A stretch of DNA of 64,000 nucleotides from assembly GCA_022708025.1 (NCBI GenBank), contig JAKIZM010000001.1, positions 62,001-126,000 on the forward strand, written 5' to 3'. The translations under genes and the position numbers were made by a program. Positions 16,522 through 52,854 of the stretch are shown here, piece by piece (the first letter of the stretch is position 1; each line of letters begins with the position of its first letter). Under the pieces are notes generated by a model that was given only the letters and a program-made list of their open reading frames with translations, was not told the origin of the DNA and did not search any database. Origin of the DNA: Bacteroidota bacterium (GTDB taxonomy: Bacteria > Bacteroidota > Ignavibacteria > Ignavibacteriales > Ignavibacteriaceae).

Positions 16522-17223
16522 ATGTTTATGGTTACCAAAGATCAAAAACCAAAAGAAACTTTGCGGGATATTCCTCTTTTCTCAGAATTGAGTATTGAGC
16601 AGCTAAGAAAGATTTCTGTATTCAGCAAAGTAAAAAAGTTTTCAAAGAATGAAATTATTTTTAATGAAGATGATACATATCTCGGTTTTTATATTCTGTT
16701 AAAAGGTACAGTAAAAGTTTTTAAAGTTTCATCAAGAGGTAAAGAATCAGTTGTCCATATAATTAAACCGCTGAATACATTTGCGGATATTCCATTATTT
16801 GAAGGCGGCAACTATCCTGTAAGCGCAGTATCACTTGATGAAACTGTAGCGTTGTTAATTTCAAAAGATAGTTTTCTGGAATTAATTAAAACTGAACCTG
16901 AAATATCTTTAAAAATGCTGGCGGGTTTTGCAAAAAGATTAAAATCGCTGATAAACCAGCTTGAAGATGTTTCCTCTAAAGAAGTTCCGGGACGACTTGC
17001 AAAATATATACTTGGTGAAATTAAATCAGCAGGTACATATAATTTACCGGAACCATTTGTTAAACTGACAATTCCTAAATCAACTATTGCTGCTTATCTT
17101 GGTACTATTACTGAAACACTCTCTCGAGCATTCAAAAAATTACAGAATGAAGAAATAATCAGGGTTAGTGGAAAAACTGTTTTTGTAACTGACTTAGTGA
17201 GATTAGAAGAGCTGGCAAAATAA
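16522..17223 (+). CDS. Crp/Fnr-family regulator, DNR/NNR-like
   Basis: Regulator of 233 residues. It has an N-terminal cyclic-nucleotide-binding-type beta-barrel (about 15-130, FSKNEIIFNEDDTYLGFYIL), a long dimer helix and a C-terminal winged helix with recognition helix in STIAAYLGTITETLSRAFKKL (about 187-207). Glu198, Ser201 and Arg202 match the E..SR residues with which FNR and DNR read TTGA half-sites. The N-terminal cysteines that hold the FNR [4Fe-4S] cluster are absent, so it is more like DNR/NNR regulators that sense NO through haem. Four TGACTTAAGTCA palindromes in this window have the half-site such a helix should read. The link is inference. The gene follows the YihY gene by two bases. 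Confidence 0.85.
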   Translation: MFMVTKDQKPKETLRDIPLFSELSIEQLRKISVFSKVKKFSKNEIIFNEDDTYLGFYILLKGTVKVFKVSSRGKESVVHIIKPLNTFADIPLFEGGNYPVSAVSLDETVALLISKDSFLELIKTEPEISLKMLAGFAKRLKSLINQLEDVSSKEVPGRLAKYILGEIKSAGTYNLPEPFVKLTIPKSTIAAYLGTITETLSRAFKKLQNEEIIRVSGKTVFVTDLVRLEELAK

Positions 17224-18293: not shown

Positions 18294-18656
18294 TTTAACC
18301 GGGGAAATTGATTTGAAGATAACTCTATTATTTGAACGCGTTTAACCATCTTTTTCTGATGAATATACGTAATAGCAATTATTTAAAAACAATATAACCA
18401 AAAACGAATTTTATATCAATCATTAGCTTAAATTTCAAAAGCAGAATTATTATCTGAATACAAAAAAGAATTTGTGCTTACTAAAAAATTCACATAAGAA
18501 TCTTTTTATATTTTACTTTAAGTGAGTAGAATGAAATTGTTCTTTTAGCACATTTGTTTGCTTGCTAGATATAACTTATCAATTCTGACTTAAGTCAAGG
18601 AAATCCATTAGCTAACTGTTTAATTTTGATTCGAATTTCAAAAAAAAGGAGTAAAA
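18294..18656. other. Divergent promoter region before the DUF2249 operon
   Basis: 363 bp without a gene. It is strongly AT-rich and holds the palindrome and -10 element listed separately on its right side. On the left it must contain the promoter of the minus-strand deoxyhypusine synthase-like gene, which I could not place. Confidence 0.7.
18586..18628 (+). promoter_or_regulatory. Crp/Fnr-type palindrome plus -10 element, DUF2249 operon
   Basis: The perfect palindrome TGACTTAAGTCA (18586-18597) resembles an FNR/DNR box (TTGAt-N4-aTCAA). After exactly 23 bp comes TAATTTTG (18621-18628), a full match to the Bacteroidota -10 consensus TAnnTTTG. Transcription should then start near 18634, which puts the palindrome centre close to -41.5, the class II activator position. 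The ATG at 18657 lies about 65 bp after the palindrome centre. Confidence 0.75.
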
Positions 18657-18884
18657 ATGGAAACTAAACAACTTGATATTCGTCCAGTTCCACCAAGAGA
18701 AAAACACCCGACAATATTTAAAACTTTTGATGAACTGAATAATGGGGAATCATTTCAATTAATTAATGATCACGACCCGATGCCGTTGTATTATCAGTTT
18801 AATGCTGAAAGACCAAATCAGTTTGGCTGGGAATATGTTGAGCGCGGTCCTCAGGTGTGGAAAGTTAATATATCTAAAGTATAA
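18657..18884 (+). CDS. Small DUF2249 domain protein
   Basis: Protein of 75 residues consisting of one DUF2249 domain: LDIRPVPPREKHPTIFKTF, then GESFQLINDHDPMPLYY and a final VWKVNI strand. DUF2249 proteins resemble the small TusA-like fold and often occur beside denitrification, NO-response and hemerythrin genes, but no reaction is established. The ribosome site AAAGGAG at 18646-18652 supports the ATG at 18657. It is the first gene after the palindromic promoter and is followed within 12 bp by a larger protein with two more DUF2249 domains. Confidence 0.85.
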   Translation: METKQLDIRPVPPREKHPTIFKTFDELNNGESFQLINDHDPMPLYYQFNAERPNQFGWEYVERGPQVWKVNISKV

Positions 18885-18896
18885 AATTTTAACACA

Positions 18897-19700
18897 ATGA
18901 TTACTAAGGATACTAAAATATCAAAAATGCTGGCGCAGTATCCGCAAACACTTGAAGTGTTGATAAATTACAGTCCGAACTTTTCAAAACTCAATAACAA
19001 GATTTTGAGAAAGACTTTAGCAAGCAGGGTAAATGTTGAGCAGGCAGCAGGAATAGCAGGAGTAAATCTCATCCTGCTGCTAAATGAATTAAATAAGTCG
19101 ATAAATTCTGATGATGCTGTAACTGTTGACCAGGGAATTGCAGAAGAAGAAATGATAAATACTGATAAACCTGAAATACTTAAAAATGCAAATCCTGAAA
19201 AAATTCAGAAGTTTGATGTAAGACCGATAATTGATTCAGGTAAAGACCCGTTCCTGGAAATAATGGCTAAGATAAAATCCCTTGATGCTGATGAAGTTTT
19301 ACATCTGATAAATTCATTCGAACCAATTCCGCTTTATAGTGTTCTTGAAAAAAAAGGATATGATCACTGGACAGAAAAAGAAGGTAATGTATATAATGTC
19401 TTTTTCTTTAAGACTGCTGATGTTGATGAACAACAGAAAGAGGAAATCGAAACTCAGCAAGCTGAAGATGTTGAATATGAAAATATGATTGAACTTGATG
19501 TGCGACAGTTAGTTCCGCCTGAACCAATGATGAAGATTCTTGAGAACATTTCAAAAGTTGATGATAAAACTGTTATGATTGTTCATCATCACCGTGAACC
19601 AATGATGCTTTATCCCAAATTGGAAGAAAGAGGATATAAAGCAGTTACAAATAAAATTGAAGATAACTATTATAAAGTAGTTATTACAAAAAAAAGGTAA
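18897..19700 (+). CDS. DUF1858-DUF2249-DUF2249 protein
   Basis: Protein of 267 residues with three parts. Residues 1-68 match the DUF1858/ScdA-N-like helical domain (ITKDTKISKMLAQYPQTLEVL). A charged linker follows. A first DUF2249 unit covers about 102-175 (KFDVRPIIDSGKDPFLEI, LINSFEPIPLYSVLEKKGY). A second covers about 198-267 (LDVRQLVPPEPMMKILENI, VHHHREPMMLYPKLEERGY). The invariant Asp-Pro of the loop NDHDPMPL in the small paralogue is changed to SFEPIPL and HHREPMML here. Its position between a small DUF2249 protein and a haem-copper-oxidase-like protein suggests a sulfur- or metal-handling accessory role. This is unproven. Confidence 0.8.
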   Translation: MITKDTKISKMLAQYPQTLEVLINYSPNFSKLNNKILRKTLASRVNVEQAAGIAGVNLILLLNELNKSINSDDAVTVDQGIAEEEMINTDKPEILKNANPEKIQKFDVRPIIDSGKDPFLEIMAKIKSLDADEVLHLINSFEPIPLYSVLEKKGYDHWTEKEGNVYNVFFFKTADVDEQQKEEIETQQAEDVEYENMIELDVRQLVPPEPMMKILENISKVDDKTVMIVHHHREPMMLYPKLEERGYKAVTNKIEDNYYKVVITKKR

Positions 19701-19706
19701 CTGTAA

Positions 19707-20972
19707 ATGAGCGAGCCAACCTCAATAGTGTCTGCATATTCTCCTCCGTTCAGAATTGTATCAAAGTATTTTATTGCAGCGATAAGTTCATTTGTTCTTC
19801 TTAATCTTTTTTTGTTGCTTAATCATTCTTTTATTGCGGGTCATCATTTTAGCCCTAAAATACTGGCAATAACACACATTGCAACTCTTGGATGGGTAAC
19901 GATGATTATCTTTGGTGCATTATTTCAGTTAATACCGGTTGTGCTTGAAGTTAAGTTGTTCAGTGAAACACTTGCAGAAATTCAGTTCTGGATTTATATA
20001 GTTGGTGCGATAGGACTGGTTTACTGCTTTTGGACATTTACAACTGGAATGTATATGGACATTTCAGCCATTTTGTTAAATCTTGTTATGTATATTTTTT
20101 CATTTAATATAATTATGACTTTTACCAGAGTTAAAAACTGGAATATAACGGGATTATATCTTGGCGGCGCTATCTTCTATTTGATTGTTACTGCTATTGC
20201 CGGACTCTTACTTGCAATAAATCTCGGCACGCCGTATATCAAAATTGATCATCTTCAGTATTTAAGCCTTCACGCTCACGTTGCTATTATCGGCTGGGTT
20301 TCTATGGTTATAATGGGTGTTACTTACAAGCTGATTCCGATGTTTACTCTTTCACATGGATTTAAATTAACTTTTGCAAAGTGGGCTTTCTGGTTGATCA
20401 ATATCGGACTTCTTGGAATCAATACTATTTTTCATTATAAGGATACTACATTTTTATATTACGTTTTTATACCAATGATTGCACTTGGTATTTTATTTTT
20501 TCTTATTCAGGTTTATATGATTTTTCAAAAAAGAATGAGAAGAAAATTAGATATAGGATTAAAGTTTTCTTCTTATGCATATCTTATGTTAGCATTAACA
20601 ACTATCCTTGGATCTTTTATAGCATTTGTTGATTATGAAAACATTACCAATCTTACAATTATTTATGGTTATATGATAATCTTTGGATACTTGTCAATGC
20701 TGATTGTAGGACAAATGTATAAAGTAGTTCCGTTTCTTGTGTGGTATCATAAATACAGCAGCAAAGTAGGTCTGGAAAAAGTTCCGCTATTAAAAGAAAT
20801 GTTTAACGAAAAAATTGCATTATATGGTTTTTACTTTATGATGACAGCATTATTTGGTTCGCTTTTTTCACTTACATTCAGAAATGAAATCGGATTGGTT
20901 ATTTCTTTTTCATTAATGTTTTTAAGTTCACTGATCTTTTCATTTAACATGGTTACAATATTCAAAAGGTAA
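19707..20972 (+). CDS. Haem-copper-oxidase/NnrS-like polytopic membrane protein
   Basis: Protein of 421 residues, almost entirely hydrophobic helices (about 12). A motif recurs three times: H57 in ITHIATLGWVTMIIFGALF, H189-x-H191 in LSLHAHVAIIGWVSMVIMG, and a histidine-free copy IIFGYLSMLIVGQMYKVVP near 330. The H-x-H helix resembles the haem-ligand helix of NorB and cbb3 oxidase subunit I. I see no HPE or HH pair that would bind CuB or FeB, so it may bind haem without being a classical oxygen or NO reductase. NnrS, a haem and copper membrane protein of NO tolerance, is the other likely relative. It lies 6 bp after the DUF1858/DUF2249 gene. Role: probable membrane redox or NO-related protein, uncertain. 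Confidence 0.65.
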   Translation: MSEPTSIVSAYSPPFRIVSKYFIAAISSFVLLNLFLLLNHSFIAGHHFSPKILAITHIATLGWVTMIIFGALFQLIPVVLEVKLFSETLAEIQFWIYIVGAIGLVYCFWTFTTGMYMDISAILLNLVMYIFSFNIIMTFTRVKNWNITGLYLGGAIFYLIVTAIAGLLLAINLGTPYIKIDHLQYLSLHAHVAIIGWVSMVIMGVTYKLIPMFTLSHGFKLTFAKWAFWLINIGLLGINTIFHYKDTTFLYYVFIPMIALGILFFLIQVYMIFQKRMRRKLDIGLKFSSYAYLMLALTTILGSFIAFVDYENITNLTIIYGYMIIFGYLSMLIVGQMYKVVPFLVWYHKYSSKVGLEKVPLLKEMFNEKIALYGFYFMMTALFGSLFSLTFRNEIGLVISFSLMFLSSLIFSFNMVTIFKR

Positions 20973-20976
20973 AACT

Positions 20977-21279
20977 ATGAAAAGTAAAGAAGAAATTTTA
21001 AAAGTACTTAAAAATGTCATCGATCCGGAAGTTGGAATAAACATTGTTGATCTTGGTTTGGTTTATGAGATTGAATCAACTGAAGATTATAATAAGATAA
21101 CAATGACTTTGACAACTCCCGGCTGCCCGATGCATAGCAGTATAACAAACTGGGTAGAAACTGCTGTTAGGCAGATAGATCCTGAAAAGAATGTTATAGT
21201 AAATTTAGTTTGGCAGCCGCCATGGACTCCCGATAAAATGAGTCCTGAGGCAAAACAAGAATTATTTGAAAGGAATTAA
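20977..21279 (+). CDS. MIP18/SufT-like (DUF59) iron-sulfur assembly protein
   Basis: Protein of 100 residues with the DUF59 signature DPEVGINIVDLGLVYEI near 17-33 and TTPGCPMHSSI near 46-56, with the conserved cysteine. Family members (SufT, PaaD, MIP18) help load Fe-S clusters into client proteins. The gene sits 4 bp after the oxidase-like gene and 3 bp before a second membrane protein, so it is probably a maturation factor for a metalloprotein of this operon, perhaps the ferredoxin two genes on. Confidence 0.88.
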   Translation: MKSKEEILKVLKNVIDPEVGINIVDLGLVYEIESTEDYNKITMTLTTPGCPMHSSITNWVETAVRQIDPEKNVIVNLVWQPPWTPDKMSPEAKQELFERN

Positions 21280-21282
21280 ATA

Positions 21283-21738
21283 GTGTTCACAACAGTCAGA
21301 TATTTTGTTAAAACAAGTTTGGCTTTTCTTGTGATTGGCATATTGGCAGGATTACATATGTCAATCTCAAAGTACGTTTCAGAAATCGGATATACACAGG
21401 AATTTGTTTCAGCACATACTCACATTATTCTTGTCGGATCAGTAATGATGATGATTATGGGCGTTGCGCTGTGGTTTTTTCCGAGAGCTGAAAAAAGTGA
21501 TAAAAAATATAATCCCGATTTAATCTGGGTTACTTATTGGATGATCACAATTGCAACGGCTCTTAGATTTGTAATGCAAATTATTGCATCTTACTTTTAT
21601 ATCTCATGGGTAAATATTGCGGTAGCAGTATTTTCATCCTTCCAGGTTTTAGCAATGATATTATTCTTCTATTCAATGTGGGGAAGAATAAGAGCTGTTG
21701 GAAGCCAGCATCGTGAAGCGAAAGGAGAAAGATTTTAA
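21283..21738 (+). CDS. Small haem-copper-oxidase-like four-helix membrane protein
   Basis: Protein of 151 residues starting at GTG 21283, with GAAAGGAA upstream. Four membrane helices are visible. H25 lies in the first helix and H45-x-H47 in SAHTHIILVGSVMMMIMGV, followed by ALWFFPRAEK. The H-x-H-x4-G pattern repeats that of the 421-residue protein two genes upstream and resembles a fragment of cbb3 or NO reductase subunit I. The two may assemble together in the membrane and bind haem. It overlaps the ferredoxin gene by one base, which indicates tight co-translation. No catalytic assignment is justified. Confidence 0.65.
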   Translation: MFTTVRYFVKTSLAFLVIGILAGLHMSISKYVSEIGYTQEFVSAHTHIILVGSVMMMIMGVALWFFPRAEKSDKKYNPDLIWVTYWMITIATALRFVMQIIASYFYISWVNIAVAVFSSFQVLAMILFFYSMWGRIRAVGSQHREAKGERF

Positions 21739-21980
21739 TGTCAATGTTAATTAATGATGATTGTATTAACTGTGCTGCGTGTGCCGCTGAATGTCCGGAA
21801 TCGGCAATATTTATTGCACAGGGTAACGGACAATTTTATAATTATGGATTTCAACCGTTATCAACAGAACATTACTTTATTTTACCGGAGATTTGTAATG
21901 AGTGTGCAGATTTAGATGAAGTAAAATGTATCTCTGTTTGTCCAATGGATGCAATTGAAATAAATAATAATCTTATTTGA
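21738..21980 (+). CDS. 2[4Fe-4S] ferredoxin-type protein
   Basis: Protein of 80 residues with two cluster motifs: CINCAACAAECP (C-x2-C-x2-C-x3-C-P) and CNECADLDEVKCISVCP (C-x2-C-x7-C-x3-C-P). The longer second spacing is typical of Alvin-type ferredoxins. It should carry two [4Fe-4S] clusters and pass electrons at low potential, plausibly between the flavoprotein downstream and the membrane proteins upstream. The start codon overlaps the preceding stop. Confidence 0.9.
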   Translation: MSMLINDDCINCAACAAECPESAIFIAQGNGQFYNYGFQPLSTEHYFILPEICNECADLDEVKCISVCPMDAIEINNNLI

Positions 21981-21993
21981 ACTTTGATTTGAA

Positions 21994-23400
21994 ATGACAG
22001 GTTTATTGGAAGAAAATATTGATAAGATTTTAGATGGTTTTATGGCAATCGAATATAAAGATCATAATGATATCTTTGCCAGAGAGCACTATAAAGAAAT
22101 ATTTACAAAAATATTTCCTTTACATGATGATGGATTGAAAAATAAAACATTATTATCTGAATCAAGCGCTGTTACTTCCGAACAACTGAAAAAGAATATT
22201 GTTGTAATAGGTGCTGGTTATGGCGGGCTTACTGCAGCACTAAGACTGGAAAAATTATTCAGAAAGTCTTTTGATTATAAAATTCATCTTATAGATAAAA
22301 ACCCCTATCATACCCTGAAAACAAGACTGCACGAAGCTGCTGTTCGTAATACTGAAGTTACAATTCCTTTGGACAGAATATTAAAAAATAAGGATATAAC
22401 ATTTTATCTCGGTGAAGTTAATTTTATAGATGTGGAGAACAGAATTGTTCACATTTCAGATGATATTGAAGAGAAAAGGCTGTTATTTGACTTTTTGGTA
22501 ATTGCTATCGGCAGTAAAATTAATTTTTACAACATAGCAGGTATGAAAGAAAATTCATTTCCTCTTCAGACTATTCTGGATGCGGATTTGATTTATGAAC
22601 ACATTTCCAAAATTTGTGCATCAACAGCTTCAGAAAGTAATGAAGACAGAAGAAAACAGAATTTAAGATTTGTAATTGGTGGCGGAGGTTTATCAGGAGT
22701 TGAGTTTGCGGGTGAATTGGCTGATCATGCGGCTAAATGTATTACTAACTATGGACTTAATAAAAATGAGATTGAAATAATAATAATTGAAGCTGCTGAG
22801 CGTTTGGTTCCTTTTATGGATAAAGAATTTTCTGAACGGGTAGAAAAAAAACTGATTGAAAAAGGTATAAAAATTCTAAAGGGATCAAAAATTATTGAGC
22901 GCACAAATGATCAAATAATATTATCAGATGGAACTGTTATTCAATCTGGAAATTTTATCTGGACTGGCGGGATACGAATATCGGACTTATTAAAAAACAG
23001 CGGGTTGCAAACAGGTCCGGCCGGTAAAGTAATGGTCAACAAGTTTTTGCAATCGGAAGATGATAAACAGATTTATGCAATTGGTGATAGTGCGAATGCG
23101 ATAAATCCGGTTACTAATAAACCGGTTCCTGCTGCTGCACAATTTGCTCTGCAGCAAGGCAGATTGGTTGCAAAGAATATTTTTTCAGAGGTAACGAAAA
23201 AAAATATGGAACAATATCAACCCAAAGTAATGGGTGAAGTTGTAAGTTTGGGCAGACATCTGGCTGTTGGCTGGCTGGCATTGCCTTTTATAAAGAAAGT
23301 TACCTTTGTGGGTTTTTTGGCAAATCTTCTTAAGGCTGCGATTAAAGAAAAACATGTTTTACTTTTGAGGAAAGAAAGTCGTAATTGGATAAGATACTAA
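21994..23400 (+). CDS. NDH-2-like NAD(P)H:acceptor flavoprotein
   Basis: Protein of 468 residues. The FAD-binding motif GAGYGG is at 73-78 (IVVIGAGYGGLTAALRL), the NAD(P)H-binding motif GGGGLSGVEFAGEL near 229-242 and the second FAD contact IYAIGDSANA near 356-365. The body matches type II NADH dehydrogenases, which oxidise NADH at the membrane surface without pumping protons. An extra 65-residue N-terminal helical segment precedes the FAD domain. The C-terminus (VTFVGFLANLLKAAIKEKH) is amphipathic and may be the membrane anchor. It is the last gene of the operon and could feed electrons to the ferredoxin or the oxidase-like proteins. Confidence 0.88.
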   Translation: MTGLLEENIDKILDGFMAIEYKDHNDIFAREHYKEIFTKIFPLHDDGLKNKTLLSESSAVTSEQLKKNIVVIGAGYGGLTAALRLEKLFRKSFDYKIHLIDKNPYHTLKTRLHEAAVRNTEVTIPLDRILKNKDITFYLGEVNFIDVENRIVHISDDIEEKRLLFDFLVIAIGSKINFYNIAGMKENSFPLQTILDADLIYEHISKICASTASESNEDRRKQNLRFVIGGGGLSGVEFAGELADHAAKCITNYGLNKNEIEIIIIEAAERLVPFMDKEFSERVEKKLIEKGIKILKGSKIIERTNDQIILSDGTVIQSGNFIWTGGIRISDLLKNSGLQTGPAGKVMVNKFLQSEDDKQIYAIGDSANAINPVTNKPVPAAAQFALQQGRLVAKNIFSEVTKKNMEQYQPKVMGEVVSLGRHLAVGWLALPFIKKVTFVGFLANLLKAAIKEKHVLLLRKESRNWIRY

Positions 23401-23528: not shown

Positions 23529-23834
23529 ATGGATACAATACAGGAAAAGATATTACCTAAACTATTGCTTTTGGATAAGAAAGATCAGCATAAAGTATTA
23601 AGGGTTACTGGTGAAGCGGGAATGAGTATGCCTGAACATATCAGCACGAAGGAAGCAGTTGTAATTATTCAGGAAGGTGAAGCAACTTTTGAAATTGATC
23701 ATAAGAATTACAACTTAAAAAAAGATGATGTGTTTATAATTCCTGCTGGTGCAAAGCATAAGCTGGATATTCAAAGCAATTTTCAAGCTGTTGTTATTAT
23801 GGATATTGATTCACAAATTGAATTTATTAATTAA
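23529..23834 (+). CDS. Small cupin protein
   Basis: Protein of 101 residues with a single cupin barrel: VVIIQEGEATFEI and DVFIIPAGAKHKLDI. The metal-ligand set is incomplete: the first motif lacks the H-x-H pair and only one histidine follows PAGA. It lies 12 bp before the RIC gene and is probably co-transcribed. Such small cupins often sit beside denitrification genes; their function is unknown. Confidence 0.75.
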   Translation: MDTIQEKILPKLLLLDKKDQHKVLRVTGEAGMSMPEHISTKEAVVIIQEGEATFEIDHKNYNLKKDDVFIIPAGAKHKLDIQSNFQAVVIMDIDSQIEFIN

Positions 23835-23846
23835 AAAGGAAGCATA

Positions 23847-24578
23847 ATGAATAATTACTTATCAAAATCTATCGGTAGTATTGTTGCGGATGATTTTCGA
23901 ACTGCAACTATTTTTAATAAATATAAAATTGATTTCTGTTGTAATGGACATAAAAACTTTGGTGAAGTTTGTGAAGCTAAAAAAATTGATATTGATGCGC
24001 TTACAAATGAACTGGACTCTGTGATAAATTCAACCCAGAAAGCAAATGTTGATTTTCAATCCTGGCCATTGGATTTACTTGCAGATTATATCGAAAAGAA
24101 ACATCATCGTTATATTGAACAGCGATCACCGGAAATAAAAGCATATCTTGATAAACTTTGCAAGGTTCACGGAAATAATCATCCTGAACTTTTTAAGATT
24201 AACGAATTGTTTAGTGAAGGTGCTGGTGAACTAGCACAACATATGAAAAAGGAAGAATTAATGTTGTTTCCTAAGATTAAAGGGCTTGTAAAGTTAGTTG
24301 AAAAAAATGACTCGGAAGCAAATAAAAAACCAGGTTCTGTTTCTACAATAGTGCAGGCAATGATTGCTGAACATGAAAATGAAGGTGTACGTTTTAAGCA
24401 AATAGCTCAATTAACAGATAATTATTCTGTACCTGCTGATGGCTGCAGTACATACAATGTAACTTTTTCTTTATTAAAAGAATTTGAAGAAGATCTGTAT
24501 ATGCACATTCATTTGGAAAACAATATTCTTTTCCCGGGCACAATTGAACTTGAAAAGAAAGTTAATCAAGCTGTTTGA
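23847..24578 (+). CDS. ric: RIC/ScdA/YtfE di-iron Fe-S cluster repair protein
   Basis: Protein of 243 residues. The N-terminal ScdA-type domain ends with DFCCNGH (Cys31-Cys32). The C-terminal hemerythrin-like four-helix domain shows spaced His/Glu residues (KKHHRYIEQ, GAGELAQHMKKEELMLFP, IAEHENEG, YMHIHLENNILFP). Family members hold a di-iron centre and restore Fe-S clusters damaged by NO or oxidants. It follows a cupin and stands next to the DUF2249 operon, which fits a nitrosative stress role. AAAGGAAGC precedes the ATG. Confidence 0.95.
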   Translation: MNNYLSKSIGSIVADDFRTATIFNKYKIDFCCNGHKNFGEVCEAKKIDIDALTNELDSVINSTQKANVDFQSWPLDLLADYIEKKHHRYIEQRSPEIKAYLDKLCKVHGNNHPELFKINELFSEGAGELAQHMKKEELMLFPKIKGLVKLVEKNDSEANKKPGSVSTIVQAMIAEHENEGVRFKQIAQLTDNYSVPADGCSTYNVTFSLLKEFEEDLYMHIHLENNILFPGTIELEKKVNQAV

Positions 24579-24645: not shown

Positions 24646-25110
24646 ATGAGAATTAATTGGTATAAAACATCGCCTGAAGGCTATAAAGCTATGCTTGAAC
24701 TGGAAAAAGTTGTTCATAAAAGCAGTCTTGATCCGAAGTTATTGGAGCTTATAAAAACCAGGGCATCGCAAATAAATGGTTGTGCACATTGTCTGGAAAT
24801 GCACACCAAAGATGCAATCGCAATTGGTGAAAGCGAACAAAGATTATTTGTGGTTGCTGCGTGGAGAGAAGCGCCATCATTTTATTCTGAAAAGGAAAGG
24901 GTTGCTTTAGCGTGGTGTGAATCTCTGACTAATATTTCATCAAAAGGTGCCCCGGAAAATCTTTATAAAGAACTGCAAAAACATTTTACTGATAAAGAAA
25001 TTGTAGAATTAACTCTTGCAATTATTGCAATTAATGGCTGGAACAGATTAGCAGTCTCTTTCCATTCTGAAGTAGGGAATTATGTTTCGAATCGAAGTAA
25101 GACTAAGTGA
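24646..25110 (+). CDS. AhpD-like/carboxymuconolactone decarboxylase family protein (copy 1)
   Basis: Protein of 154 residues with the AhpD-type redox motif INGCAHCLEMHTKDA (Cys46, Cys49, His53) and the helix REAPSFYSEKERVALAWCE. Family members with this C-x2-C-x3-H motif use it as a redox-active dithiol, for example as peroxidase partners. The closest relatives are general alkylhydroperoxidase-like proteins. A second copy at 25786-26247 is roughly three-quarters identical by eye, so the pair arose by duplication. It lies downstream of the RIC gene with its own short leader. Confidence 0.88.
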   Translation: MRINWYKTSPEGYKAMLELEKVVHKSSLDPKLLELIKTRASQINGCAHCLEMHTKDAIAIGESEQRLFVVAAWREAPSFYSEKERVALAWCESLTNISSKGAPENLYKELQKHFTDKEIVELTLAIIAINGWNRLAVSFHSEVGNYVSNRSKTK

Positions 25111-25756: not shown

Positions 25757-25785
25757 TATAATATTTGTTTGAAAGGAGATTAAAG

Positions 25786-26247
25786 ATGAGATTAGATTGG
25801 GCAAAGGTTTCGCCGGATGCATTAAAAGCTATGATGGCAGTACAAGGATTTACTGATAAAAGCTCTCTTGATCATAAATTAATAGAACTGATAAAGATCA
25901 GATCTTCACAAATAAACGGATGTGCTTATTGTCTGGATATGCATACAAAAGATGCAATCGCAATAGGTGAAAGTGAACAAAGATTACATGTTGTTGCCGC
26001 TTGGAGAGAAGCTCCCTTTTACTCAGAACAGGAAAGAGTTGCTTTAGGTTGGTGTGAATCACTAACAGAGATTTCTTCAAAGGGTGCACCTGAAAATCTT
26101 TTTAAGGAATTACAGAAACATTTTACTGATGAACAGATCGTCGAATTAACCCTTGCTATTATTGTAATCAATGGCTGGAATCGTTTGGCAGTAGGTTTTG
26201 AATCTGAAGTCGGAGGTTATGTTTCTAACCGTAAACCCGGTAAATAA
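25786..26247 (+). CDS. AhpD-like/carboxymuconolactone decarboxylase family protein (copy 2)
   Basis: Protein of 153 residues, read from the ATG at 25786 because AAGGAGA at 25773-25779 is well placed; a TTG at 25765 lies before that site. The motif INGCAYCLDMHTKDA (Cys46, Cys49, His53) matches copy 1 exactly in position, and the two proteins align almost end to end with one single-residue gap. The conserved dithiol suggests a redox or peroxidase-linked function. It is followed 47 bp later by an FAD/NAD(P)H reductase that could reduce it. Confidence 0.88.
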   Translation: MRLDWAKVSPDALKAMMAVQGFTDKSSLDHKLIELIKIRSSQINGCAYCLDMHTKDAIAIGESEQRLHVVAAWREAPFYSEQERVALGWCESLTEISSKGAPENLFKELQKHFTDEQIVELTLAIIVINGWNRLAVGFESEVGGYVSNRKPGK

Positions 26248-31320: not shown

Positions 31321-32149
31321 TTTAACACCTTATTATTTTGATGGAAATATTTTTTATAATTTTTTGTCATTTGTTAATTAAAATTTTTTGATTGTTGTAA
31401 GAACTGCTGTTCTTTATGTCAGTGGTCACATCTTTTATGCCAATCATTAAAAAGTAAGAACATCAAAAATTATTTTCTGACGATAGTCAAGTAATAAAGG
31501 AAAAATACTTTTTAAAAAGAATAACTATTTATAAGAATAAAAGATTGCGTATAAGCAGATATGTTTGTTTGTTTAATAAAGAATAAGTGATATACAGGTT
31601 ATATTTATTTCATAAAATAAGTTTCAATGTTTAATAACTGAGCTGTAAAAGAAGATTTTAGAATGTTTAATGTAAGTTATTTTTTTAATACTATTACTTT
31701 AATTTCTTATTGTAATGACTTTTTAATTTAATGTGTATAAAATTCTAATTCATTTGATGCTTCGACAAGAAAAATCCAATTTCAATTATTAAAAATAAAT
31801 TTTCAATTCCTGTTTGAATAAAAAACTATTTCAATTTTTTTTTCTTAAATGAAATTCTTTGTAACGGTAAAAATGTTCTCTTTTTTTTCTGAATTCAGTA
31901 AAAAAGTAAAAATAAAATCGGCAATAATTAAGTATGATAGTGATTAATTTATTATTGTTTTATGATTAATTATTAATCCAATCTTACAATACAGAACACA
32001 TTTTCTTGCATTTCATTACATAAATGAGCAATTCTGACTTAAGTCAAGGAAAACATTTCTAATGAGGGATATTTTTTAATCATTCTATTTCATAATTGTT
32101 TATCAGAAACATTTTTATGTTTTTCCAATAAGAGGGAATGTTAAAAGAT
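31321..32149. other. Long AT-rich intergenic region with one regulatory site
   Basis: 829 bp between divergent genes. It has no convincing reading frame. The left part must hold the promoter of the minus-strand lipoprotein gene. The right part holds the Crp/Fnr-type palindrome at 32035-32046 and its -10 element. The middle (31500-31950) is very AT-rich with homopolymer runs, and I see no repeat or RNA structure in it. Confidence 0.7.
32035..32077 (+). promoter_or_regulatory. Crp/Fnr-type palindrome plus -10 element, CopD-like gene
   Basis: The palindrome TGACTTAAGTCA is at 32035-32046. Exactly 23 bp later comes TATTTTTT (32070-32077), which fits TAnnTTT. The flanks CAATTC before and AGGAAA after are identical to the site at 18586. 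The start codon is about 100 bp further on, so the transcript would have a leader of about 65 nt. Confidence 0.72.
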
Positions 32150-32635
32150 ATGTCCGAAGCATACACTATAATTCGAGCAATTCACTTGCTGGCTGCTGCG
32201 CTCTGGTTTGGGTTAGTAATGGTTATCAATTTTGTTATCCAGCCGGTTTTAATCAGCCTTAAAGGTGAATTAAGAGGGCAGATTGTAAAATCAGTATTTC
32301 CAAGAATATTTAAACTTGCTTCAATATTTTCTGCTACAGTTGTTATTACAGGTTTATATATGGTTTATTATTTGACAAATGGCAACTTAGAAGCACTACT
32401 GCACGGCAGATGGGGGATATCAATTTTAATTGGCAGTTCACTTGGGATTTTATTAACACTTTTTCATTTTTTTCTGGAAGAAAAATTGTCAAAAAAGATT
32501 ATGCTTGGTAAACAAGGTGACAATCAGAAATTAGAAGAAGTACATTTAAAGATGAAAATTGTTCCGAGGGTCGGATTAACTATTCTGACAATAATCTTTC
32601 TTTTAATGATTAATGCTGCTCACGGAATTATTTAA
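32150..32635 (+). CDS. CopD-like small membrane protein
   Basis: Four-helix membrane protein of about 161 residues. The first helix carries AIHLLAAALWFGLVM, where a histidine near the helix start followed by a W-x-G motif is typical of CopD-like and related haem- or copper-binding membrane proteins. A second helix (SIFSATVVITGLYMVYYL), a third (WGISILIGSSLGILLTLFHFF) and a fourth at the C-terminus follow. An ATG at 32138 is in frame, but GAGGG at 32132-32136 lies too close to it, so the ATG at 32150 is preferred, with some doubt. It begins the unit preceded by the palindrome and is followed by an AhpD-like gene. Confidence 0.7.
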   Translation: MSEAYTIIRAIHLLAAALWFGLVMVINFVIQPVLISLKGELRGQIVKSVFPRIFKLASIFSATVVITGLYMVYYLTNGNLEALLHGRWGISILIGSSLGILLTLFHFFLEEKLSKKIMLGKQGDNQKLEEVHLKMKIVPRVGLTILTIIFLLMINAAHGII

Positions 32636-42633: not shown

Positions 42634-43086
42634 ATTTTCAATTATTATTTTCAGTTGTGATTCTTAAATGATTACACAACAGCATTTATATCTGATATCA
42701 AAATAATTAAAAGCATTTCTATTCTCAACAACTTTTAGTTCATTTTATATATGAGGAAGTGATATTTTAAATACAAAATCAGATGATTAAATAATAATTT
42801 ACGATATAATGTTGGAGTAATTTTTTATCTGATAAAAGAATCTATCATTCATGACTTAAGTCAAGGAATTGGTCTTAGCTGATGGATATCTTTTAAGTGT
42901 TTATTATGAAAATTATATAAAAACACCCTTTTCTTAATAAAAAGATAGGAAGAAAAATCATAAGTAAGATAAAAATAATGTAAAGGTAAAGGGGATTAGC
43001 TTTTCATAATATTTGATATTTCTTCAACATAATGATTAATTCAATAATCATTATCTTTGCCTTGTCTATTTTAAAAAGGAAAAATA
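42634..43086. other. Intergenic region between the R-M genes and the cupin-GAF unit
   Basis: 453 bp. It contains the palindrome at 42852-42863 with its -10 element and the start of the cupin unit on the right. The left half should contain the promoter of the minus-strand methyltransferase, not located. No other structure seen. Confidence 0.65.
42852..42894 (+). promoter_or_regulatory. Crp/Fnr-type palindrome plus -10 element, cupin-GAF unit
   Basis: TGACTTAAGTCA (42852-42863), then 23 bp, then TATCTTTT (42887-42894), a TAnnTTT match. The palindrome is followed by AGGAA as at 18586 and 32035. The first gene starts about 190 bp later, which would give a long leader. Confidence 0.7.
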
Positions 43087-44557: not shown

Positions 44558-46516
44558 ATGAAAAACATTTCAAAAAAATTTCTATTTGTTGCACTCGGAA
44601 CTTTATTTGTGGTTGTTCTGGCTTATGTCGGATGTAATCAGTCTAAAAGTTCTTTATCAGGTAACGAAGCTGAAAGAGTTTATGTTGCCCCTGGTAACTA
44701 TGATGAGTTTTATTTATTTACTTCCGGAGGGTTTAACGGACAGATGGGAGTAATGGGACTTCCATCAGGAAGACATTTTAAAACCATCTCAGTTTTTTCA
44801 CAAAATCCGGAAACAGGTTACGGATATTCTGAAGAAACAAAGGCAATGTTAAATACAACTTACGGATTTATTCCCTGGGACGATGCACATCATCCTGAAC
44901 TTTCAATGACTGATGGCGTGCCTGATGGAAGATTTATTTTTATAAACGGAAATAATACTCCGAGAGTTGCAAGAATTGATCTTAAAGAATTTGAAACGAA
45001 AGAAATTATTGAGATACCAAATTCAGCAGGTAATCACGGTTCTCCTTTCGTAACTGAAAATACGGAGTATATTGTTGCTTCTACAAGATTCAGTGTTCCG
45101 ATTCCGCAAAGTGATGTTCCGATTTCATCATATAAAGAAAATTTTAAAGGAACTATCAGTTTTATTAAGCTTGATCCGCAAACAGAAAAAATGAATCTGG
45201 AATTTCAAATAATTGTTCCGGGTTTTGATTACGATCTTGCTCATGCAGGTAAAGGTCCCTCACACGATTGGGCTTTCTTTACAAGTTATAATTCTGAGCA
45301 GGCGAATACACTGTTAGAAATTAACGCTTCAAAAAATGATAAAGATTTTATTGCAGCTGTTAATTGGAAAAAAGCTGAACAATATCTGAAAGAAGGTAAA
45401 GCTAAAACTGTTGACGCTGAGTATTACAGAAATTATATCGATGATAAAACTCATACAGCAGTAAGTCAGCTTAATAAACAGGTAAAAGTTCTTGATCCTA
45501 AAGATTGTCCGGGAATGATTTATTATCTGCCTACTCCAAAATCACCTCACGGAGTAGATGTTGATCCAACAGGTCAATATATTGTTGCCGGCGGTAAATT
45601 AGCTACTGTTATTCCTGTTCATTCATTTGATAAAATGATCAAGGCTATTGAAGGCAAACAATTTGATGGTGAAGTTAACGGAATTCCTATTCTTAAATAT
45701 GATGCAGTTGTTGCCGGTGAAGTGTCAAATCCGGGACTTGGTCCTTTGCACACAGAATTTGATGGTAATGGATATGCATATACCTCATCATTTATTTCAT
45801 CTGAAATTGTTAAATGGAAATTAGGAACCTGGGAGGTTGTTGACAGAATCCCCACTTATTATTCAATCGGGCACTTATGTATTCCGGGTGGTGACAGTAA
45901 AAAACCCTGGGGTAAATATGTTGTAGCTCTTAACAAAATTACTAAAGACAGATATCTTCCAACCGGTCCTGAACTTACACAATCAGCACAACTGATAGAT
46001 ATTACCGGTGATAAGATGAAACTGCTTCTTGATTTTCCGACAATAGGCGAGCCGCATTATGCACAGGCTATTCCTGCTGAAATTTTAATGAAAAATTCTC
46101 AGAAGATTTACAAGATTGAAGAGAACGGAAATCCTTATGCAGTTAAATCTGAGAAAGATACCCGTGTTGAGAGAAAAGGAAATGAAGTGCATGTATATAT
46201 GTCTGCAATAAGAAGTCACTTTTCACCAGATAATATTGAAGGTATAAAAGTAGGTGATGTGGTTTATTTCCACGTTACAAACTTGGAACAAGATTGGGAT
46301 ATACCGCACGGTTTTGCAATGAAAGGGATGAACAATGCCGAGTTATTGATAATGCCCGGTCAGACACTTTCAATTAAGTGGGAACCCAAGAAAGTTGGAG
46401 TATTTCCGTTCTACTGTTCAGATTTCTGTTCAGCATTACATCAGGAAATGCAGGGATATATCAGAGTATCACCTGCTAATTCAAATGTTCAGCTATCTTA
46501 TAGTTTAGGAAAATAA
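44558..46516 (+). CDS. nosZ: Nitrous oxide reductase, clade II (Sec-dependent)
   Basis: Protein of 652 residues that reduces N2O to N2 in the periplasm. The N-terminus is a Sec or lipoprotein signal (FLFVALGTLFVVVLAYVGC) with no twin-arginine motif, a mark of clade II. Ligands for the CuZ cluster include the histidines in DDAHHPELSMTDG and SAGNHGSPF and later ones in the beta-propeller. The CuA site is at the C-terminus: FYCSDFCSALHQEMQGYI near 617-634, with the C-x3-C-x3-H-x2-M pattern. It is followed by a strong terminator and then by the maturation genes. Confidence 0.97.
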   Translation: MKNISKKFLFVALGTLFVVVLAYVGCNQSKSSLSGNEAERVYVAPGNYDEFYLFTSGGFNGQMGVMGLPSGRHFKTISVFSQNPETGYGYSEETKAMLNTTYGFIPWDDAHHPELSMTDGVPDGRFIFINGNNTPRVARIDLKEFETKEIIEIPNSAGNHGSPFVTENTEYIVASTRFSVPIPQSDVPISSYKENFKGTISFIKLDPQTEKMNLEFQIIVPGFDYDLAHAGKGPSHDWAFFTSYNSEQANTLLEINASKNDKDFIAAVNWKKAEQYLKEGKAKTVDAEYYRNYIDDKTHTAVSQLNKQVKVLDPKDCPGMIYYLPTPKSPHGVDVDPTGQYIVAGGKLATVIPVHSFDKMIKAIEGKQFDGEVNGIPILKYDAVVAGEVSNPGLGPLHTEFDGNGYAYTSSFISSEIVKWKLGTWEVVDRIPTYYSIGHLCIPGGDSKKPWGKYVVALNKITKDRYLPTGPELTQSAQLIDITGDKMKLLLDFPTIGEPHYAQAIPAEILMKNSQKIYKIEENGNPYAVKSEKDTRVERKGNEVHVYMSAIRSHFSPDNIEGIKVGDVVYFHVTNLEQDWDIPHGFAMKGMNNAELLIMPGQTLSIKWEPKKVGVFPFYCSDFCSALHQEMQGYIRVSPANSNVQLSYSLGK

Positions 46517-52482: not shown

Positions 52483-52854
52483 CTCACTATTTCCCGCATT
52501 ACATTTAACCATCTGATTTAGCTTGATATACGCAATAGCTGTCATTTATTTAAACCTAAAATAGCAAAAACAATTTTTCTTCTCAAACTATAATTCACCT
52601 TTACTGTAGTGTTATTATTTCATTTTGTTTTATAATATCAGATCAAAATTACTTTTCTTAAACAATTTATAGTGGAAATTATTTTATTGATAATGTTAAC
52701 TAATTAAAAATAAATTTTGCGGGTTTTTTTATTGCAATTTAAGTTTATAATAATTATCTATGCCCAACCCAAGATTGATTTTTTGACTTAAGTCAAATTT
52801 GTAGTCCGTTAATTATTAAAAATTTATTATTCATTCCTATTTGGAAGGTAAAAG
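52483..52854. other. Promoter region of the nitrate reductase operon
   Basis: 372 bp. The left part still belongs to the inserted segment and is AT-rich thereafter. The palindrome at 52784-52795 is the only clear signal. No terminator or second promoter is evident. Confidence 0.65.
52784..52826 (+). promoter_or_regulatory. Crp/Fnr-type palindrome before the nar operon
   Basis: The 12-bp core TGACTTAAGTCA is extended here to the 16-bp palindrome TTTGACTTAAGTCAAA (52782-52797). At the spacing seen at the other sites (23 bp) lies AAAATTTA, only a partial TAnnTTT match. The ATG at 52855 is about 65 bp after the palindrome centre, the same distance as at 18657. Confidence 0.7.

Follow-up and report, generated by a model that had tools for sequence, protein, structure and literature searches.

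The operon at positions 18,657 to 23,400 of the 64,000-nucleotide stretch of DNA analysed here (the window) is built around a 421-residue homologue of haem-copper oxidase (HCO) subunit I. Our analysis suggests that it encodes a membrane haem module, induced by nitrate or nitric oxide (NO), that would protect or repair iron-sulphur (Fe-S) centres and perhaps other metal centres, a reading to which we give a probability of roughly 45%. The window belongs to a genome of 3.45 Mb in 117 contigs, whose closest named relatives are Ignavibacteria. We use the name HCOH3 for the 421-residue protein and HCOH1 for its 151-residue companion (HCOH, haem-copper-oxidase homology, after the families of Pei et al. 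2014). The seven genes form a real operon, as the preliminary description of this DNA had proposed from their tight spacing behind a palindrome: the successive gaps are 12, 6, 4, 3, -1 and 13 bp, and the palindrome is in place (coordinates in Table 1). The functional unit reaches further, to the RIC gene (24578); downstream of the gene for a type II NADH dehydrogenase (NDH-2)-like flavoprotein, a cupin gene follows after 128 bp and RIC 12 bp further. It probably also takes in the gene of a Crp/Fnr-family regulator upstream.

A core of three genes, DrpB-HCOH3-DUF59, is conserved across several phyla. Our survey covered 80 named genome records, mostly from Bacteroidota and Ignavibacteria, together with NC10, a Nitrospirae and a Marinimicrobia bin. 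DrpB lies directly upstream of HCOH3 in 77 of these 80 records, and a DUF59 gene directly downstream in 75 of the 76 that have sequence there. All 14 further loci, a few of them from genomes already among the 80, show the same two neighbours, which brings the set to 94 loci. HCOH1 (23/94), the ferredoxin (15/94) and NDH-2 (9/94) are mostly Ignavibacteria additions, and 21 loci have cupins close by. The route from NADH through flavoprotein and ferredoxin to the haem protein, drawn in the preliminary description, is possible for the Ignavibacteria version but lies outside the core. In more distant organisms the surroundings vary. The order in Thermus NAR1 is narGHJI, two transporter genes, drpA and drpB, then a transposase gene, genes for an HCOH1-like protein and a protoglobin, and lastly HCOH3 and DUF59; Sinorhizobium sp. 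B11 has norCBQD and hemN, then DUF2249-HCOH3-DUF2249-DUF59, followed by NnrS and nirK, with NnrU and a Crp/Fnr gene in the vicinity; Haloprofundus combines nirK with three DUF2249 genes and HCOH3; and an Aliarcobacter plasmid carries HCOH3-DUF59. DUF59 is the next gene after HCOH3 in Thermus NAR1 and in Aliarcobacter, and the next but one in Sinorhizobium. The protoglobin-domain gene of Thermus NAR1 (L139:11167-12006), lodged between the HCOH1-like gene and HCOH3, may possibly encode a further haem- or NO-binding partner.

HCOH3 has the 12-transmembrane, three-fold fold of the HCO superfamily, judging from its AlphaFold2 model (mean predicted local distance difference test score, pLDDT, 92.2) and from Foldseek, whose significant matches are all subunits of that superfamily (template-modelling score 0.79 for CcoN, 8smr_E, and 0.69 for cNOR, 3o0r_B). 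The full set of six metal-binding histidines of HCOs and NO reductases (NORs), in helix II, helix VI, the HH pair and the HxH motif, is not present. As had been noticed earlier, HCOH3 has neither an HPE motif nor an HH pair, and both membrane proteins carry H-x-H-x4-G, as H189-A-H191-(4)-G196 in HCOH3 and H45-T-H47-(4)-G52 in HCOH1; the first motif of HCOH3 has a single histidine, H57. H57 and H189 are invariant in 69 of 69 HCOH3 sequences and no other histidine is; H191 is kept in 50 of the 69, and a tyrosine occupies the first position of unit 3 (Y320) in 65.

The ligand roles of the histidines in HCOs are established, and their positions obey a registry: they precede the proline that ends the second helix of a four-helix unit by 22 residues (first position) or 20 (second position). 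In the cbb3 oxidase subunit CcoN of a relative (L154), H63 takes the first position of unit 1, H210 the second of unit 2, and H348 and H350 both positions of unit 3. Each HCO site therefore pairs the second position in one unit with the first position in the following unit: units 3 and 1 hold the low-spin haem, units 2 and 3 the binuclear centre, and the interface of units 1 and 2 is empty. The invariant histidines of HCOH3 map to the second position of unit 1 (H57) and the first position of unit 2 (H189), and because they sit there, we predict from the sequence one bis-His haem at the very interface that oxidases leave empty. Equivalent pairs occur in Thermus (H53/H180), Sinorhizobium (H51/H192), Aliarcobacter (H52/H181) and Haloprofundus (H55/H189). 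The Haloprofundus protein (L141:9851-11230) has in addition the pair H53/H324 where units 3 and 1 meet, and since both pairs obey the interface rule, this haloarchaeal homologue may hold two haems. Compared with cbb3 CcoN and cNOR NorB, HCOH3 thus shares the fold, the HxH-type helix and the histidine-to-proline registry, but lacks CuB/FeB and the low-spin helix-II histidine, its own pair belonging to the interface of the first and second units.

A single bis-His haem, in an operon that also encodes a ferredoxin and NDH-2, could mean that HCOH3 is a plain electron-transfer cytochrome b, passing electrons from quinol or NADH to a cytoplasmic acceptor in a process unrelated to NO. We regard this as quite improbable, as it leaves the RIC fusions described below, DUF59, DUF2249 and the regulon unexplained.

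HCOH1 matches PF00115, and its number of transmembrane helices is judged from hydropathy only; a sequence search of PDB gave no match for it. H45 and H47 are both invariant in 19 sequences, for which reason a trimer of HCOH1 could hold haems. Membership of either membrane protein in the NnrS family was rejected on scores: against PF05940, HCOH3 gave no match at E-values up to 1, and HCOH1 reached 22.5 bits, below the 28 required. NnrS resembles HCOH3 in being a 12-transmembrane, HCO-related haem protein tied to NO, but the two are distinct, and Sinorhizobium has them side by side.

The preliminary description had raised the idea that the two HCO-like proteins jointly form an NADH-driven NO reductase, converting NO to N2O, in a window with no canonical enzyme for that step. 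The fold shared with NORs, the structural match to cNOR and the possibility that a trimer of the four-helix protein adds histidine sites all speak for this, and the window indeed has no such enzyme. The genome, however, has an sNOR/CuANOR-like one. On contig C102 a cluster of subunit II, subunit I and an SCO-like protein encodes a subunit I with the HxH motif and the HH pair, in which H-T-L-A-N replaces the H-P-x-V-Y of oxidases, and a subunit II with the CuA motif CLEYCGMAHQGM. An asparagine in place of the cross-linked tyrosine marks sNOR/CuANOR (residue table, PMC8756737), and by its HH pair, asparagine and CuA subunit II the enzyme classes as sNOR/CuANOR on sequence. The palindrome that precedes the operon also stands 129 bp before this cluster.

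Across the 15 genomes with HCOH3, a NOR is recognised in six (sNOR type in our genome, G132, G059 and G168; qNOR type in G074 and G224), none is recognised by motif in eight, and G148 has an unclassified HCO. The expected pattern of nosZ without norB fits only some of the 15 carriers. The eight carriers without a recognised NOR favour the NO reductase idea. Set against it are the two invariant histidines, the missing CuB/FeB ligands and the dedicated NORs found beside HCOH3, namely sNOR or qNOR under the same palindrome in Ignavibacteria (our genome, G074 and G224), sNOR in G059 and G168, and the nor cluster of Sinorhizobium. On ligands and on these co-regulated enzymes we rejected NO reduction by HCOH3; the operon is probably not the missing NO reductase, and a joint, NADH-driven NO reductase is very improbable. 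What did hold is the link to nitrogen-oxide respiration: NosZ is present in 14 of the 15 HCOH3 genomes against 71 of 232 without HCOH3 (p = 1.6e-6, kinship ignored). No NirK or NirS that could serve as a source of NO was found in our genome, and NrfA is present outside the window; the organism appears to be a nitrate ammonifier that also reduces NO and N2O, and NO would then arise as a by-product.

In G074, a CcoN-like HCO that reads H-M-G-V-G at the helix-VI position lies, with a two-haem-c partner, a few genes from the module. This type of CcoN-like HCO (L038:2493-3929; G224:C3:175567-176802) fits no class in the residue table that we used.

The palindrome ties the operon to the rest of nitrate respiration. 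The 12-mer TGACTTAAGTCA has five exact copies in the whole genome, four in the window (Table 1) and the one on contig C102, while a reversed control has none; allowing up to one mismatch, the window has 4 copies against 0.15 expected. The same 12-mer lies 70-85 bp 5' of drpA in 21 related loci. In G224 it precedes both the drp operon and a DUF6448-qNOR-cupin operon. In G074 it stands before the drp operon and before a cluster whose last genes are qNOR and a cupin gene, and it also occupies the gap between narC-narG and a lone HCOH1 gene. As TGACTTAAGTCA is common to the operon, narCGH, the nosZ region and the sNOR cluster, the operon is co-regulated with nitrate respiration, that is, to judge from the common operator sequence, switched together with nitrate, NO and N2O reduction. 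The operator thereby defines a small Ignavibacteria regulon that joins nar, NOR, nos and the module. The Crp/Fnr protein resembles DNR, because it has the E-T-L-S-R recognition helix of the FNR/DNR type and no cysteines, and it is likely the protein that reads the palindrome. An alternative operator, TTGACN4GTCAA, was rejected, as it occurs at only two genomic places and its backwards-read control at more.

Two further observations concern this regulon. The 165-residue, four-helix DUF4149/CopD-like protein downstream of one copy (Table 1) has homologues in G132 and G124 that also have the operator upstream, and is possibly a further membrane protein linked to nitrate or NO. The second observation concerns L199:8578-9165 and L197:3438-4016. 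The DUF6448-type gene of G224, which stands under the operator directly before qNOR, encodes a small protein with a signal-peptide-like start; in G074 there is a gene of similar size ahead of qNOR, and in G124 the operator accompanies a gene that looks related.

Other parts of the module point to Fe-S chemistry. Near the module, 26 loci (Pontibacter, Adhaeribacter, flavobacteria, an NC10 bin and others) have a DUF2249-RIC fusion, usually upstream of DrpB in the place taken by drpA in Ignavibacteria. RIC (YtfE, ScdA) is linked to Fe-S repair after NO; unlike the module, it is a soluble di-iron protein that lacks a membrane haem partner. The DUF59 protein belongs to the DUF59/SufT-like family (PF01883) and has an invariant Cys50, with solved homologues TM0487 and TTHB138; it falls below the SufT equivalog cut-offs (101.6 against 143.4 bits for TIGR02945, 85.4 against 202.6 for TIGR03406). 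Haloferax has, within its nar operon, a DUF2249 domain joined to a P-loop NTPase of the Fe-S carrier type (PMC11218638). It is these fusions, the RIC gene in the operon and the invariant cysteine of DUF59 that lead us to prefer Fe-S repair. The connection with NO and nitrogen oxides rests on the operator, on NosZ and on the Rrf2 regulators that stand close to the module in 37 of the 94 loci, which in 12 loci examined carry C-x6-C-x5-C, as do Fe-S Rrf2 regulators such as NsrR. Protection against NO, one of the roles first suggested for the operon, gains support from the RIC fusions and these NsrR-like neighbours.

The remaining partners add the following. The AlphaFold2 model of DrpB gives Foldseek matches with weak E-values to SirA, TusA and TsuB, the last of which shares a TusA-like fold with the DUF2249 domains of DrpB and forms complexes with the membrane protein TsuA. 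Sulphur transfer by DrpB is unlikely because the TusA cysteine is absent, DrpB having no conserved cysteine, and catalytic sulphur transfer by DUF2249 was rejected on this ground. The flavoprotein has the Pyr_redox_2 fold and by sequence is NDH-2-like, its best solved matches being YjlD (2.6e-64) and an NADH dehydrogenase-like protein of S. aureus.

In the scheme that we favour, a DNR-like Crp/Fnr protein would turn on the operon, nar, nos and the NO reductase through their common site. HCOH3 would be a cytochrome b with a single low-spin haem (H57-Fe-H189), placed between the first and second four-helix units towards the periplasmic half and distinct from a catalytic binuclear centre. Its conserved cytoplasmic loops would dock DrpB and the DUF59/SufT-like factor, with which it is genetically linked, and the complex, with RIC, would reduce or remove NO-iron adducts and restore clusters in the enzymes of nitrate respiration. 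The Ignavibacteria version could draw electrons from NADH via the NDH-2-like protein, the ferredoxin and the four-helix HCO homologue. That DrpB, a 12-helix cytochrome b and a DUF59 carrier undo NO damage to Fe-S enzymes across phyla, with electrons from the membrane or NADH and with the Thermus DrpAB pair as one part of the system, is a possible but distinctly tentative generalisation.

The first two genes have the Drp architecture, a DUF2249 protein followed by a DUF1858-DUF2249-DUF2249 protein, and DrpB is 35% identical to its counterpart in Thermus thermophilus NAR1, where domain architecture, gene order and linkage to nar are the same (PMC6282519). There DrpAB was published as a two-gene nitrate sensor, and the passages of that report that we read make no mention of the HCO homologues and DUF59 that lie downstream of the transposase gene in the same strain. 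The main rival to Fe-S repair, compatible with much of the same evidence, is accordingly a sensor complex. The HCOH3 haem would sense NO or nitrate, one histidine ligand being displaced on binding, and the signal would pass on the cytoplasmic face to DrpB, which would control the Crp/Fnr or Rrf2 regulator, with DUF59 serving an Fe-S regulator. This agrees with the Thermus phenotypes, in which nar and dnr are expressed constitutively when drpB is mutated and nitrate dependence is lost in drpAB mutants (PMC6282519), with the Crp (27/94) or Rrf2 genes near the module, and with the conserved residues of HCOH3, concentrated immediately after the second helix of each unit, where HCO topology puts the cytoplasmic side. 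A sensor would not be expected to have DUF59 as an obligate partner or to show RIC fusions, the Crp protein here has no cysteines for a cluster, and regulators commonly stand beside NO-detoxification genes too. On balance we think a sensor possible, though rather unlikely.

The Thermus double mutant also bears on assembly: drpAB mutants have normal NarG with little nitrate reductase activity (PMC6282519). This result, which we also count in favour of Fe-S protection or repair, the presence of DUF59 and the co-regulation with nar, nor and nos would suit a maturation factor that hands Fe-S clusters or haem to the NarGHI, NOR and NosZ machinery at assembly, with no role in NO damage. The RIC and NsrR-like associations point instead to NO, and many carriers are not obviously complete denitrifiers, so that a maturation factor seems doubtful, the more so than a sensor.

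Several points weigh against Fe-S protection or repair itself. We infer the haem, the interaction of the partners and the repair activity from sequence. The Thermus work was interpreted by its authors as nitrate sensing (PMC6282519), and a haem on the periplasmic side with cytoplasmic partners fits a transmembrane sensor as well. DUF59 could mean maturation instead of repair, because DUF59 proteins act in general Fe-S assembly. The electron route through ferredoxin and NDH-2 is limited to a minority of loci, and RIC is non-adjacent in most.

The families of the parts (HCOH proteins, DrpA/B, DUF59 and RIC) are already known. Pei et al. in 2014 (Protein Sci 23:1220) reportedly defined HCOH families as 12-transmembrane three-unit and 4-transmembrane one-unit homologues of HCO/NOR subunit I, which are said to have few conserved histidines and often to be tied to denitrification and NO. 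HCOH3 presumably fits their three-unit definition, with 12 transmembrane helices, three units and two conserved histidines; the single-unit definition we take to be an independent 4-transmembrane protein that resembles one HCO unit and has H-x-H. That work reportedly describes families, and the DrpB-HCOH-DUF59 triad, the operator and the RIC fusions come from the present analysis. The module as a whole appears to be undescribed, no account of the triad, operator or RIC fusions as one system having been found in the literature searched, which lay outside subscription journals. Pei et al. 2014 is cited in PMC11218638.

Haloarchaeal denitrification strongly induces DUF2249 proteins, which also alter nitrate respiration in Thermus; in the literature searched, the domain is named in just two papers. 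Their conserved association with an Fe-S factor and a putative membrane haem protein suggests a concrete complex, and a testable alternative to a nitrate sensor. If the Fe-S repair reading is true, nitrate-respiring bacteria would have a further way to survive their own NO. Recognising the set would also keep HCOH proteins from being labelled cytochrome oxidases or mistaken for NO reductases.

Table 1. Features of the module, its surroundings and the operator copies in the window.
Feature	Position	Strand	Evidence or context
Crp/Fnr-family regulator, DNR-like	16522..17223	+	sequence and domain search
Palindromic Crp/Fnr-type operator TGACTTAAGTCA	18586..18597	.	upstream of operon
DrpA, single DUF2249 protein, 75 aa	18657..18884	+	PF10006 109 bits; same architecture as Thermus DrpA
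DrpB, DUF1858 + 2 x DUF2249, TusA-like fold, 267 aa	18897..19700	+	domain search; identity to Thermus NAR1 protein; AlphaFold2
HCOH3, 12-transmembrane haem-copper-oxidase-homology protein, 421 aa	19707..20972	+	PF00115 45.8 bits, gathering score 34.8
DUF59/SufT-like Fe-S assembly factor, 100 aa	20977..21279	+	PF01883 64.7 bits
HCOH1, putative single-unit HCO homologue, four helices by hydropathy, 151 aa	21283..21738	+	PF00115 38.4 bits
2x[4Fe-4S] ferredoxin, YfhL-like, 80 aa, accessory	21738..21980	+	domain search
NDH-2-like flavoprotein, 468 aa, accessory	21994..23400	+	nearest solved structures YjlD, S. aureus protein
Small cupin	23529..23834	+	PF07883
RIC/ScdA iron-sulphur cluster repair di-iron protein	23847..24578	+	TIGR03652 231.5 bits, cut-off 204.7
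Operator TGACTTAAGTCA	32035..32046	.	103 bp upstream of 4-transmembrane DUF4149/CopD-like protein (32138-32635)
Operator TGACTTAAGTCA	42852..42863	.	intergenic, before nosZ region (43401 on; nosZ 44558-46516)
Operator TGACTTAAGTCA	52784..52795	.	71 bp upstream of narC-narG-narH (52855 on)

A search of phage records gave no match. A gene on the opposite strand, for a deoxyhypusine-synthase-family protein (PF01916, 17250-18293), separates the operon from the Crp/Fnr gene. RIC is followed by two similar carboxymuconolactone-decarboxylase/AhpD-like genes (24646-25110 and 25765-26247) and a cupin gene, an order that recurs in a close relative (L036). In Pontibacter (L094:12180-14907), the module and an Rrf2 gene are followed by nadA, which encodes an Fe-S enzyme, and by the gene of an FAD-dependent oxidoreductase that resembles nadB.

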